Origin: Rufibacter hautae
GTDB taxonomy: Bacteria > Bacteroidota > Bacteroidia > Cytophagales > Hymenobacteraceae
Direction of reading: 5' to 3'
NCBI RefSeq assembly: GCF_008271695.1
Contig: NZ_VKKY01000003.1
Span: forward strand, 620,001-684,000
DNA length: 64,000 nucleotides
Shown here: positions 5,115 to 46,912 of the stretch, piece by piece
Layout of the letters: every line of letters begins with the position of its first letter
How positions within the stretch are numbered: position 1 is the stretch's first letter
Position numbers and translations under genes: made by a program
Notes under the pieces: generated by a model
What the model was told of the DNA's origin: nothing
The model's database searches: none
What the model saw: only the letters and a program-made list of their open reading frames with translations

Positions 5115-5417
5115 ATAAAGGATTTTGCTTGTGTTTGTGAGGTGATTTCCATTTGGAAGCGGTTTTTTTTGATAACGTAGTCCGTTTTTGCTGGCGTGGC
5201 GCCGCGGTTTGCGTGGGTTCAATAACTTCATTGTTCCATAGCTGGGCTCCGAGCGCTCACGGCCGCGGGGCCCCGCCTTCCGGTCTCGCGCTGCTGTTTT
5301 AGCCTTGGCCGGTTGGCCTGCCGCTCTCGCGGCACCAAGTCTAAAACAAAGGCGCTCAACCGAAAGGCTGGAAACAGAAATGCGCATCAGCTTATTTGCA
5401 CCATCAAAATTGTACAT
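5115..5417 (-). repeat. ~270-nt repeat body, copy A
   Basis: Read on the minus strand this shares long blocks with 26536-26810. These include TTTCCAGCCTTTCGGTTGAG, then GGAAGGCGGGGCC followed by CGCGGCCGTGAGCGCTCGG, and TGAACCCACG. Its middle is a hairpin (TTTAGACTTGG / CCAAGGCTAAA), while copy B has different bases that also pair. It directly follows a 67-nt three-hairpin element. An in-frame ORF runs through it, but I do not call it a gene. Confidence 0.8.
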
Positions 5418-5484
5418 GGTTCAAGTCTGTGACTTGGACCCAAAATGACGGGCAGTTTGCAACTGCCCTGAGGCGAGAGCCTCA
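5418..5484 (-). repeat. 67-nt three-hairpin element, copy A
   Basis: On the minus strand: hairpin 1 at 5484-5469 (TGAGGC/GCCTCA), hairpin 2 at 5468-5450 (GGGCAGTT/AACTGCCC), a 9-nt linker, then hairpin 3 at 5440-5418 (GGTCCAAGTC/GACTTGAACC). The same layout and exact length occur at 26469, 33359 and 44640. Confidence 0.9.
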
Positions 5485-9731: not shown

Positions 9732-9867
9732 TTCCTTGGTCTGTTCCTTGACAGACCAACCTCTTGACGAGAGGTTTTGAGTTTTGCAATTCGGTCTGTC
9801 AGGGGACAGATCAAGGAAGAAGTTTTACTGAGAAAATTCCCCTCCTGGGAGGGATAGGGGTGGGTTC
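9732..9867. repeat. Nested foldbacks plus a CCCCTCCTGGGAGGG-type dispersed repeat
   Basis: The outer arms TTCCTTGGTCTG (9732-9743) and CAGATCAAGGAA (9807-9818) enclose three small hairpins (9738-9757, 9760-9774, 9793-9812). Beside them 9837-9867 reads TTCCCCTCCTGGGAGGG then ATAGGGGTGGGTT, a sequence type I recall as a dispersed intergenic repeat in many unrelated bacteria. No gene is seen in the 418-bp gap between POT and CNT genes. Confidence 0.6.
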
Positions 9868-26468: not shown

Positions 26469-26535
26469 TGAGGCTAGAACCTCACGGCAGTTGCAAACTG
26501 CCGGTCAAGATGGGTCCAAGTCACAGACTTGAACC
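26469..26535 (+). repeat. 67-nt three-hairpin element, copy B
   Basis: Hairpin 1 at 26469-26484 (TGAGG/CCTCA), hairpin 2 at 26485-26503 (CGGCAGTT/AACTGCCG), 9-nt linker, hairpin 3 at 26513-26535 (GGTCCAAGTC/GACTTGAACC). Hairpin 2 differs from copy A in its outermost pair (C-G here, G-C there). Confidence 0.9.
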
Positions 26536-26810
26536 ATGGACTATTGTTAAGGTGCAACTCAGTTGTGACGCATTCCCTTTTTCCAGCCTTTCGGTTGAGC
26601 GCCTTGTCAGGTTCCGGTGCCGCAGGCATTGCGACCGAAGGGAGCAAAGGAAGCTGGCGCAGCGCGATGCCGGAAGGCGGGGCCTCGCGGCCGTGAGCGC
26701 TCGGAGCCCGGCTATGCAACAATAAAGCTTATGAACCCACGAAAACAGCGGGACCACGCCAGCACAAGCGGACTACGATTGCACAAGCAAACCATGAGTG
26801 ACCAGAAGCT
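26536..26810 (+). repeat. ~270-nt repeat body, copy B
   Basis: Inverted with respect to 5115-5417 and diverged, but with the same order of blocks. The central variable hairpin here is CAGGTTCC/GGAAGCTG instead of the unrelated arms in copy A. An ORF in the second half is in the same frame as in copy A (shared RKAGPRGRERSEP and NPRK), but it lacks a fixed start. Confidence 0.8.
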
Positions 26811-32990: not shown

Positions 32991-33075
32991 ATCCGACTAC
33001 AAATCCATTGCATAAATAACTCACAGCAAGAAGAGCATAAGCAAGGAACCAGTCAGCTTAAAACCTTTATACCAC

Positions 33076-33131
33076 CTGCGGCAGGCCGGGGCGAAGGCCT
33101 ACAGTGAGGCCGAGGACCGGCCTGCCGCAAG
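33076..33131. repeat. Inverted repeat with 14-bp arms
   Basis: CTGCGGCAGGCCGG (33076-33089) and CCGGCCTGCCGCA (from 33117) flank a 27-nt loop. This is the first of several unrelated foldbacks packed into the 659-bp gene-free gap 32991-33649. Confidence 0.75.
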
Positions 33132-33203: not shown

Positions 33204-33286
33204 GAAGCCTCACTGTCCGAGCGTCAGCGAGTTTGAGGCTTCTTGATTCTTTTGGTTACTTTTCTCATCAAGGAGAAAAGTGACAA
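33204..33286. repeat. Two adjacent palindromes of a Bacteroidota-type dispersed repeat
   Basis: GAAGCCTCA ... TGAGGCTTC (33204-33243) is followed by GTTACTTTTCTC, a 6-nt loop and GAGAAAAGTGAC. The pairing of a 'GAGCGTCAGCGAGTTTGAGG' segment with a 'TTTTGGTTACTTTT' hairpin is one I recall seeing dispersed in many Bacteroidota genomes. Confidence 0.65.
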
Positions 33287-33358: not shown

Positions 33359-33425
33359 TGAGGCTGTCGCCTCACTACAGTTGCAAACTGCAGGCCATGA
33401 TAGGTCCAAGTCATAGACTTGAACC
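33359..33425 (+). repeat. 67-nt three-hairpin element, copy C
   Basis: Hairpin 1 at 33359-33374, hairpin 2 at 33375-33393 (CTACAGTT/AACTGCAG, one mismatch), 9-nt linker, hairpin 3 at 33403-33425. The ~270-nt body does not follow this copy. Confidence 0.9.
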
Positions 33426-44639: not shown

Positions 44640-44706
44640 TGAGGCTATCGCCTCACTGAAGTTAGAAACTTCAGCCCATTTTGGGTCCAAGTTGAAAACT
44701 TGAACC
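44640..44706 (+). repeat. 67-nt three-hairpin element, copy D
   Basis: Hairpin 1 at 44640-44655, hairpin 2 at 44656-44674 (CTGAAGTT/AACTTCAG), 9-nt linker, hairpin 3 at 44684-44706 (GGTCCAAGTT/AACTTGAACC). Stem bases changed relative to the other copies changed on both sides, keeping the pairing. Confidence 0.92.
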
Positions 44707-44740
44707 AGTGAAGAGGGAGGAAAAGCCCCGCTTCAAACAA

Positions 44741-44772
44741 AAAGCCCCGCTGGAAACCAGCGAGGCTTTTCT
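44741..44772 (-). terminator. Terminator of the Gly/Ser-rich protein gene
   Basis: On the minus strand AAGCCTCGCTGG pairs with CCAGCGGGGCTTTTT, 23 bp after the stop. A direct repeat of AAAAGCCCCGCT lies just beyond (44720). Confidence 0.88.
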
Positions 44773-44794
44773 TAGATGAGATTATCTAAACTGA

Positions 44795-46912
44795 TTAACG
44801 ATCGTCTCTGGAAGAACCGCCACGTGAGGAGCGGTCATTGCGGTCTTTGTCTCCGCTGGAGCGACGGTCATCATGGTCTTGGTCTGAACGGCCGTACTGA
44901 GAGCGGTTCTCATAGCCGGAACCACCGCCACCGTAGCTAGACTGTCCTCCGCCTTGGGTGCCGCCGTAGCCACCGCGTGAACCCATGCTGCCGGATGAAG
45001 AAGAACCGTATCCGCTGGAGCCGCCGTAGCTGCTGCCGCCTTGGCCGTATCCGCCCATGCCGTAGTCACGGCTTTGGTCGCCGTAGCCACCGCCGGTAGA
45101 GGCACCACCATGGCCGCGGTCATGGTCGCCACCGCCTTGTCTTGAACCGGTTCCTGAAGAGCCGTAGCCACCACGGGAGCCCATGTCATTGCCCATGTTC
45201 CCGTAGTTAGAGCCACCAAAGCTTCCGCCGCTGTGGCCGCCCTGTGATCCCTGGCCGGAGCCGTAGCTAGAACCACCGTAGTTGCCACCACCCATTGAGC
45301 CGTAGCCACCTTGCGAAGAGCCGTGGCTTCCGCTTCCACTGCCGCCTTGTGAAGAACGGGACCCGAAATCGCCACCCTGTGAGTTATAGGTGCTGTAACC
45401 GCCCTGGCCGCTGCCGCCGCTCATAGAGCCGTAGCCGCTGCTATCGCCCCCGCGGTTCTGGCCGCGTGAGCCGCCGCCTCCTTGCCAGTCTTGGTTGCCG
45501 CCCTGTGAAGAGCCGTAGCCGCCGCGTGATCCCATGTCTGAACCCATAGAGCCGCCGTAGCCGCCTCTGGAGCCCATGTCATGTGAACCGTAGTTAGAGC
45601 CGCCACGTCCACCCTGGTTTTGGGTGCTGTAGCTGTTTCCGCCTTGGCTGTAGCCACCGTCATAGTCAGAGTTTCCATCGTACCCCTGTCCGCGGGAAGA
45701 ACCGCCACGTGAGCCGTACTCTTCGCTGTAAGATCCGCCTCTTGAGCCCATAGAGCCGTAAGAGCCGCCTTGCTGATTGCTATAGCCTTGGCTGTATCCG
45801 CCGTGGCCGCTGCCTTGGCCTCCGCCACCGTGCATGCCGTAGCCGCTCTCAGTGCCGTAGCCCATCTGGTTTCCGTAATAGCCGGAACCGCCGTAGTTTG
45901 AATATCCACCGCGGTCAGACTCTGAACGGGAAGAATTACCGGCGTATCCGCCTTGTGAGCTCATGCCGTACGGATTGCTGCCCATGCCAGAGCCTCCGCC
46001 GTAGCCGCCTTGTCCACCGGAGTGGCCCATAGATCCGCCGTAGCCGCCCTGGCCGTAGTTAGAACCACCTTGGTTGCCCTGTGATCCGTAACCGCCTTGG
46101 CCGTAGTTAGAGCCACCCTGGCCACCGTAGTTGCCGCCGCCTTGTCCGCCGTAACGGTTGTGCTGGTCGTCATGGTTGTTCCAGGAGTTTCCGCCGCCGA
46201 AGCTGCCGTTGTTGCCTCCCTGTGAACCGTATCCGCCTTGGCCGCCACCTTGTGAGCCGTAGCCGCCTTGCTCGCCGTTGAAGTTACCGCCCCCGCTGAT
46301 GCCGCTCATAGAAGAGCTGCCCTGGTTGCCGTAGTCTCCGCCCTGTGATCCGCCATAGCCCATGCCGCTGCCCATAGAAGCAGAAGAACCTGAAGCGCTG
46401 TCAGAGCCAGAAGACCCAGATTTAGATGATTTGCCGGAGCCTGATTTATCACCGGAAGCTTTGGCCGAGGTAGATGAACCTGATCTGCCACCGGCTTTTG
46501 GTGTGGAAGAGGTAGTGGAACCTGAAGCGGAAGTTTTGCTTCCGGAGGTTTTGCTACCTGAAGCGTTATTGGAAGTGGAAGAAGATCCTTTTTTGGAAGT
46601 AGCAGAAGAACCGCTAGTGGCAGTAGGAGAGCTGGTGCTTCCTAAACCGCCGGAAGAGCCGGAGCTAGAAGAAGTATCACCTGAGGCAGTTCCACCAGAA
46701 GCGCTGGAGGTTGAGCCAGTGCTTCCTTGTAAACCAGAAGTTCCTTGTGTGCCCGAAGAACCTAAAGATCCAGGAGAGGAACCTGAAGTTGAGCTTTGGC
46801 CCACGGTACCTGATGAAGAGGAGGAAGAAGCATTCGTACCCATCCCACCGGATGACCCGGTAGAAGAGGAGCCTTGGTTATCGTTTTGCTGCTCTTTTTG
46901 ATTGTCTTTCAT
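44795..46912 (-). CDS. Gly/Ser/Tyr/Gln-rich low-complexity (FUS-like) protein
   Basis: The 705-residue protein starts MKDNQKEQQNDNQGSSSTGSS with no signal peptide and a clear Shine-Dalgarno. Residues ~1-185 are Ser/Gly/Thr-rich with SGSKTSGSKTSASG repeats. Residues ~186-660 are dense imperfect repeats such as GGYGSQGG, SNYGQGGYG and SRGGYG, with Tyr, Gln, Asn and scattered Arg as the only large side chains. The last ~30 residues are strongly charged (DQDHDDRRSSGDKDRNDRSS). No globular domain is visible, so it should be intrinsically disordered. Composition resembles eukaryotic FUS/TAF15 low-complexity and RGG regions, and some bacterial stress proteins. Function unknown; a phase-separating or water-retaining stress protein is an inference. 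Confidence 0.85.
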   Translation of the reverse strand: MKDNQKEQQNDNQGSSSTGSSGGMGTNASSSSSSGTVGQSSTSGSSPGSLGSSGTQGTSGLQGSTGSTSSASGGTASGDTSSSSGSSGGLGSTSSPTATSGSSATSKKGSSSTSNNASGSKTSGSKTSASGSTTSSTPKAGGRSGSSTSAKASGDKSGSGKSSKSGSSGSDSASGSSASMGSGMGYGGSQGGDYGNQGSSSMSGISGGGNFNGEQGGYGSQGGGQGGYGSQGGNNGSFGGGNSWNNHDDQHNRYGGQGGGNYGGQGGSNYGQGGYGSQGNQGGSNYGQGGYGGSMGHSGGQGGYGGGSGMGSNPYGMSSQGGYAGNSSRSESDRGGYSNYGGSGYYGNQMGYGTESGYGMHGGGGQGSGHGGYSQGYSNQQGGSYGSMGSRGGSYSEEYGSRGGSSRGQGYDGNSDYDGGYSQGGNSYSTQNQGGRGGSNYGSHDMGSRGGYGGSMGSDMGSRGGYGSSQGGNQDWQGGGGSRGQNRGGDSSGYGSMSGGSGQGGYSTYNSQGGDFGSRSSQGGSGSGSHGSSQGGYGSMGGGNYGGSSYGSGQGSQGGHSGGSFGGSNYGNMGNDMGSRGGYGSSGTGSRQGGGDHDRGHGGASTGGGYGDQSRDYGMGGYGQGGSSYGGSSGYGSSSSGSMGSRGGYGGTQGGGQSSYGGGGSGYENRSQYGRSDQDHDDRRSSGDKDRNDRSSRGGSSRDDR

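Follow-up and report, generated by a model that had tools for sequence, protein, structure and literature searches.

What kind of element is a 67-nt sequence of three successive hairpins that recurs four times within 64,000 nt of the Rufibacter hautae genome (contig NZ_VKKY01000003.1, positions 620,001 to 684,000; hereafter the window)? A first-pass annotation, made from the letters alone, had described the four copies and called them similar to repetitive extragenic palindromic (REP) sequences, of no recognised family. The data presented here suggest that this element, the core, is probably a REP-class repeat of the type that accompanies REP-associated tyrosine transposases (RAYTs) in Bacteroidota (subclass 2.6-like), non-autonomous and of an unusual three-hairpin form. 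Most likely, it is an offshoot of REP repeats that were spread as single-stranded DNA by a domesticated transposase.

The core consists of hairpin 1 (16 nt), hairpin 2 (19 nt) directly abutting it, a 9-nt linker and hairpin 3 (23 nt). All four copies in the window have exactly these parts with no indels, in full agreement with the annotation. Copy A lies on the minus strand at 5418-5484 (hairpin 1, 5469-5484; hairpin 2, 5450-5468; linker, 5441-5449; hairpin 3, 5418-5440), and the other three are on the plus strand: copy B at 26469-26535 (26469-26484, 26485-26503, 26504-26512 and 26513-26535 for the same parts in order), copy C at 33359-33425 (33359-33374, 33375-33393, 33394-33402 and 33403-33425) and copy D at 44640-44706 (44640-44655, 44656-44674, 44675-44683 and 44684-44706). 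The stems are less regular than had been proposed. The stem 2 arms of copy C, CTACAGTT/AACTGCAG, contain one unpaired A.C, which corrects the earlier listing, and stem 1 of copy B has one C.A mismatch. Stem 3 is not a perfect palindrome: GGTCCAAGT/ACTTGAACC carries a C.A at the fourth pair in all four copies.

Four copies might be chance look-alikes, and a genome-wide count and a search of relatives had been proposed as checks. A strict core pattern gave 27 matches in the 5.84-Mb genome, and the reversed pattern, used as a control, gave none. With a covariance model built from 29 copies we obtained 103 matches at E<=1, 94 of them at E<1e-4, so that the four copies are not accidental resemblances; 150 of 2775 candidates were scored in this search, and weak copies may be missed. 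The weaker matches include related REPs of other types and antisense matches, and some core copies lack hairpin 1 altogether. In relatives, where at most 85 candidates per genome were scored under stricter filters and high counts are thus lower bounds, the core was present in 15 of 15 genomes of the same genus (1 to at least 85 matches each); among 21 further members of the family, 13 have it (1 to 50 matches each), and the model found it in none of 22 genomes outside the family. G014, a same-genus genome searched by itself, gave 104 matches at E<=0.01. The core records among the matches listed come from six Rufibacter species or strains and Sabulibacter ruber, at least 93 loci in all. Small three-hairpin DNA repeats of this kind are thus a real family, present in many dozens of copies per genome in Rufibacter.

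That the hairpins are maintained as folds is clear from the pattern of substitutions. Among 106 matches in the own genome (102 distinct), 95.9% of stem cells are paired and two-sided changes occur at 16 of 23 pairs; none of 500 shuffles reached any of the five measures used, and slid-partner controls were far lower. Among 107 matches (104 distinct) from 93 loci of other species, 97.2% are paired and 18 of 23 pairs show two-sided changes, and again not one of 500 shuffles came as high. The two alignments had been fitted to the covariance model, which biases them towards the structure. The annotation had read the paired stem changes as selection on a folded strand, and had named unpaired changes in a genome-wide alignment as the result that would speak against it. 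We looked for these and found the changes paired. A direct example is site C, where the stem 2 arms are CTACAGTT/AACTGCAG here vs. CGGAAGTT/AACTTCCG in the relative G003, that is, two compensated pairs. Covariation in both sets, together with the empty reversed-pattern control, rules out a chance match. The same data bear on a rival idea, namely that the core acts as a duplex, as a protein-binding or chromosome-organising site, and owes its palindromes to a dimeric protein. In favour of this, hairpins 1 and 2 have their symmetry on both strands and many copies are intergenic; however, the stem changes are compensated over several stem 2 types and a mismatch is kept, which is easier to reconcile with folding than with a binding site of fixed sequence, and we regard a duplex site as most improbable.

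The mismatch is the fourth pair of stem 3. It is C.A in 92, A.C in 3 and something else in 3 of 98 own rows, so that a conserved in-stem mismatch, a feature of E. coli-type REPs, is present in 95 of 98; of 104 rows from other species, 102 have C.A and 2 have A.C, but these come from loci chosen by a pattern that fixes this pair. (The own-genome alignment has 106 rows, and counts of mismatches and positions use the first 82, 92 or 98, the weakest having been dropped, including overlapping antisense matches.)

A conserved fold could also belong to a transcribed RNA element, such as a stem-loop array in the 3′ untranslated region that serves as an exonuclease block or a termination aid, in which case selection would act on the RNA fold. 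The strong covariation and the predicted fold (computed with DNA parameters) are compatible with this, as is the location of the copies: by a simple open reading frame (ORF) rule, and without a computed expectation, 37 of 92 own copies lie between two gene 3′ ends vs. 5 between two 5′ ends, with 44 mixed and 6 unclassified. However, position is not diagnostic, since many REPs also lie downstream of coding regions, as the abstract of PMC3733652 states. Moreover, G.T pairs are no more frequent than A.C mismatches (12 vs. 28 in the own genome, p 0.017; 30 vs. 30 in other species; pooled p 0.13), and this argues against selection on a transcribed RNA, since a selected RNA should tolerate G.U better. 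The kept irregularity of stem 3 is C.A on the strand as read and would be G.U on the other strand, no T run follows the copies among those listed, and copies are absent at orthologous sites. We consider an RNA element unlikely, and the evidence leans towards folding as single-stranded DNA rather than RNA. Which strand folds we do not name, since the G.T/A.C strand lean of the own genome is not seen in other species; predicted single-stranded DNA folds favour the complementary strand for all four window copies, because the stem 3 mismatch reads T.G there.

Copies are dispersed and mostly intergenic, with an ORF of 110 aa or more overlapped by 8 of 92. A coding role was rejected by eye, as loop and spacer lengths change regardless of codons. 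Likewise, integron attC sites were set aside by eye, since the copies are dispersed and not arrayed. Known Rfam RNAs were rejected too, with no match in the window and, at five loci, only matches far below the gathering scores.

A pointer to the nature of the core comes from the transposase genes. Just as the annotation had proposed, we searched for Y1/RAYT genes and found two Y1 transposase genes in the own genome, both matching NF047646 REP_Tyr_transpos (96.3 and 94.4 bits; cut-off 80). Their motifs, read by eye and not placed on a tree, are SHVH/NHVH, WQ, YIHNNP/YLHQNP and SS, close to those tabulated for subclass 2.6 in the relevant part of PMC6006769 (NH[LIV]H, WQ, YIH[QN]NP and SS). A PDB search gave weak matches, the best being TnpA-REP 4er8 (E 0.21). 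Related two-hairpin REPs adjoin both genes: one gene (L106) is bracketed by them, and the other (L109) has one directly at its 3′ end and a partial inverted copy of hairpin 3 on the other side. These REPs share with the core an AGTT..AACT hairpin 2, a linker of 8-10 nt, a CAAGT..ACTTG hairpin 3 and the mismatch in the same place, which bears out the description of the core as REP-like. Y1 hits in relatives were represented by 40 fetched loci, chosen by leaving out IS200-like matches, two matches of G007 and other genera except G021; of the 42 Y1-hit loci considered, 9 have no reading frame by the motif rule and one (L196) is of a different type. The core model finds RAYT-linked REPs at 8 of these 42 loci (E<=0.0022, best 7.1e-8) and a two-hairpin regular expression at 9, so that 12 have one by either test. 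The core as an IS200/IS605 end pair was rejected: no core was found at the 42 fetched loci and no transposase gene beside cores.

Hairpin 1 may be explained by inverted REP pairs. Complete pairs consist of four hairpins in the order 3′-2′-2-3 (primes marking the inverted partner), the middle two abutting without a gap. They were seen at 6 of 20 fetched loci of G012, twice at the RAYT locus L169 of G003 and once in the own genome (L107), with one doubtful place at L298 left uncounted; a narrower scan had detected them at 4 of the 20 G012 loci and at no own or RAYT locus. In the core, hairpin 1 occupies the exact place of the partner's hairpin 2, and from this position we infer that the core is such a pair minus its far hairpin. 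Three-hairpin copies with a RAYT-type hairpin 3 exist as well, at L059 in the own genome and at L298 in R. latericius.

Comparison of orthologous sites showed which copies are shared. Copy A is present in G003 and absent from G014 and G010; copy C is present in G014 and G003 and absent from G010; copy D is present in G014 and absent from G003 and G010. Copy B is present in G014, G003, G010 (without hairpin 1), G002, G008, G011 and probably G015, and absent from G009, G005, G012 and G007, with G004, G001, G013 and G006 unassigned. Thus, copies are old at some sites and were gained or lost at others. The range from 1 to at least 85 copies among genomes of the same genus, at sites that differ between species, is consistent with mobility.

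Hairpin 3 also has a REP-like foot. NT[AG]G stands directly 5′ of it in 74 of 74 own rows in which the hairpin starts with GGTCC and in 99 of 102 such rows from other species, and its sequence is a relaxed version of the REP foot GT[AG]G. The foot nevertheless opens a series of points that weigh against a REP-class assignment. Its T and G, though not its purine, were already set in the patterns used to seed the model and to choose the other-species loci; the strict GT[AG]G is found in under half of the rows (34 of 74 own, 50 of 102 other); and, among the matches listed, 17 RAYT-linked REPs are of the CCACAAGT type, of which just 9 have T[AG] before hairpin 3. The three-hairpin core occurs at none of the 42 fetched Y1-hit loci, where nothing exceeded 38 bits. 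G010, G011, G008 and G001 have 79, 51, 50 and 60 core matches despite no RAYT-linked REP at their fetched RAYT loci (3, 4, 1 and 3, respectively) by either test, and G006 has 13 cores and no Y1 match. The sequence of hairpin 1 is unlike that of hairpin 2, so that the truncated-pair origin rests on geometry, and the 80 own loci contain one sound four-hairpin pair, that of L107 (L105 was discounted as misparsed). Sites B and C are common to several species, so these copies are old, and mobility was not observed directly. In the relatives compared, none of sites A-D was readable as a clean empty site, because even the nearest genome, G014, 83-90% identical over aligned stretches, is too diverged between genes.

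On balance, and by most of the features tested, we favour the REP-class reading, under which the parts would act as follows. The REP proper would be hairpin 3, marked by the NT[AG]G foot and the kept A/C mismatch, and hairpin 2 and the 9-nt linker would complete a two-hairpin REP as found beside RAYT genes. Hairpin 1 would most likely be the remainder of the inverted partner. The hairpins would fold while the DNA is single-stranded, during lagging-strand synthesis or repair, and the RAYT may recognise hairpin 3 via foot and mismatch, cutting and rejoining one strand. Copies would thereby spread to intergenic sites, surviving mostly beside gene 3′ ends.

The core is accompanied by other repeats, and two of them raise a further explanation of its distribution. 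At copy C, repeat X (33204-33284, plus; a hairpin followed by TTGATTCTTTTGGTTACTTTTCTC...) lies 5′ of the core, and repeat W (33074-33115, plus), a GC-rich hairpin, starts the stretch 5′ of X. The core might then be the end of a larger non-autonomous transposon of about 465 bp, core - W - X - core, moving as a unit like IS200/IS605 derivatives. At six loci, two cores in direct orientation do start 394-447 bp from each other, with X between them in all six and W in five, and of 29 copies with a CTGC or CTAC stem 2, 26 have X 114-146 nt upstream. However, most own copies lack W and X, or have X without the left core, and G010 has X-like DNA and no core at site C; a larger transposon is thus very unlikely, and the REP-class reading is retained. 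As for X itself, it is a hairpin GAAGCCTCACTG...TTTGAGGCTTC plus a conserved tail, and hairpin 1 of the core that follows could be an alternative pairing partner for its arms (TTTGAGGCT, GCCTCACTG). W, as Z (below), is followed by a CTATGCAACA stretch.

Repeat Z, of about 140 nt, lies 3′ of copy B (26582-26722, plus) and 3′ of copy A (5228-5372, minus). It has 26 matches in the own genome, including that beside copy B, and the same 26 places were found 8-130 nt downstream of a core on the same strand. In G014, there is a core upstream of 25 of the 29 Z copies, in 16 cases at a distance of 74-78 nt; in G012, a core is upstream of 1 of 21 Z copies among the matches listed, and a CCACAAGTT-type REP is upstream at 7 of 20 fetched loci. 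Z is present in 15 of 15 relatives of the same genus, in 11 of 21 other family members and, weakly, in 2 of 22 members of the order. Genomes of the same genus have 14 to at least 54 copies each (at most 54 candidates per genome were scored under stricter filters, so that high counts are lower bounds). A phylum search with the Z model, scoring 10 candidates per genome, gave Z in 1 of 296 genomes, the own one, and does not bound its range; two family members included in it, G020 and G025, were without Z in the family search too. Z occurs at none of the 42 Y1-hit loci. Its structure covaries across genomes, with two-sided changes at 30 of 36 pairs and 0 of 500 shuffles as high, and in helices 1-5 there are 52 G.U vs. 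6 A.C, a count that leans the same way as the RNA energies with which RNAalifold derived the structure. Z thus looks, from its modelled structure, more like an RNA than the core does. With no Rfam match above threshold (window and five loci), Z would be a new RNA family if transcribed. By description alone, it resembles ERIC-like intergenic repeats, being conserved, structured, intergenic and present in tens of copies. It is the more surprising lead, and may be a more interesting novelty than the core.

Several further features were recorded in the window and at other core loci. A copy, with 2 mismatches, of a CCCACCCCTACCCCTCCGAGGAGGGGAAT repeat found elsewhere between core and Z lies at 9836-9864 (minus). 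A terminator-like hairpin, AAAAAGCCCCGCTGGAAACCAGCGAGGCTTTT, stands 3′ of copy D at 44740-44775; it is recognisable in G014, G003 and G010, and the core itself in G014 alone. Adjoining copy D, a 705-aa reading frame (44795-46912, minus), mostly of Ser, Gly, Gln, Tyr and Asn repeats, would encode an unusual low-complexity protein. At two other loci (L035:1001-1118 and L069:1001-1130), a second, partial core, consisting of linker and hairpin 3 or of hairpins 2 and 3, stands directly behind a core, which might be what slippage at hairpins could leave.

How does the core compare with known systems? Searches of the open-licence PMC literature listed no paper describing the core or Z by title or abstract. 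The annotation's remark that the family was not recognised holds up. REPIN/BIME elements (PMC8266576) are four-hairpin inverted pairs, of which relatives have examples and the own genome has one; the core differs in that it has, in place of two complete inverted REPs, one full REP and one hairpin of its supposed partner. E. coli REPs, as presented in part of PMC8266576, are like the core in being imperfect palindromes with a foot tetranucleotide 5′ of the stem and a conserved in-stem mismatch, and the E. coli TnpA-REP requires both of these features, acting on one strand of single-stranded DNA, namely the foot and the mismatch; unlike the core, E. coli REPs have one hairpin and not three, a strict GTAG and another RAYT group. 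The closest likeness is to the REPs of subclass 2.6, which according to the relevant section of PMC6006769 corresponds to RAYT group 5 (Bacteroidetes) and has atypical REP-like structures without GT[AG]G and of weaker secondary structure. There, as here, RAYT genes with such motifs have REP-like structures adjoining them and copies elsewhere in the genome. Unlike in that account, two hairpins, a linker, a kept mismatch and an NT[AG]G foot are defined here, plus a three-hairpin form beside no fetched RAYT. The core thereby supplies a sequence anatomy for Bacteroidota REPs, termed in that section only "atypical secondary structures", and it names the hairpin, foot and mismatch that a subclass 2.6-like RAYT should recognise, so that an undescribed enzyme-substrate pair becomes testable.
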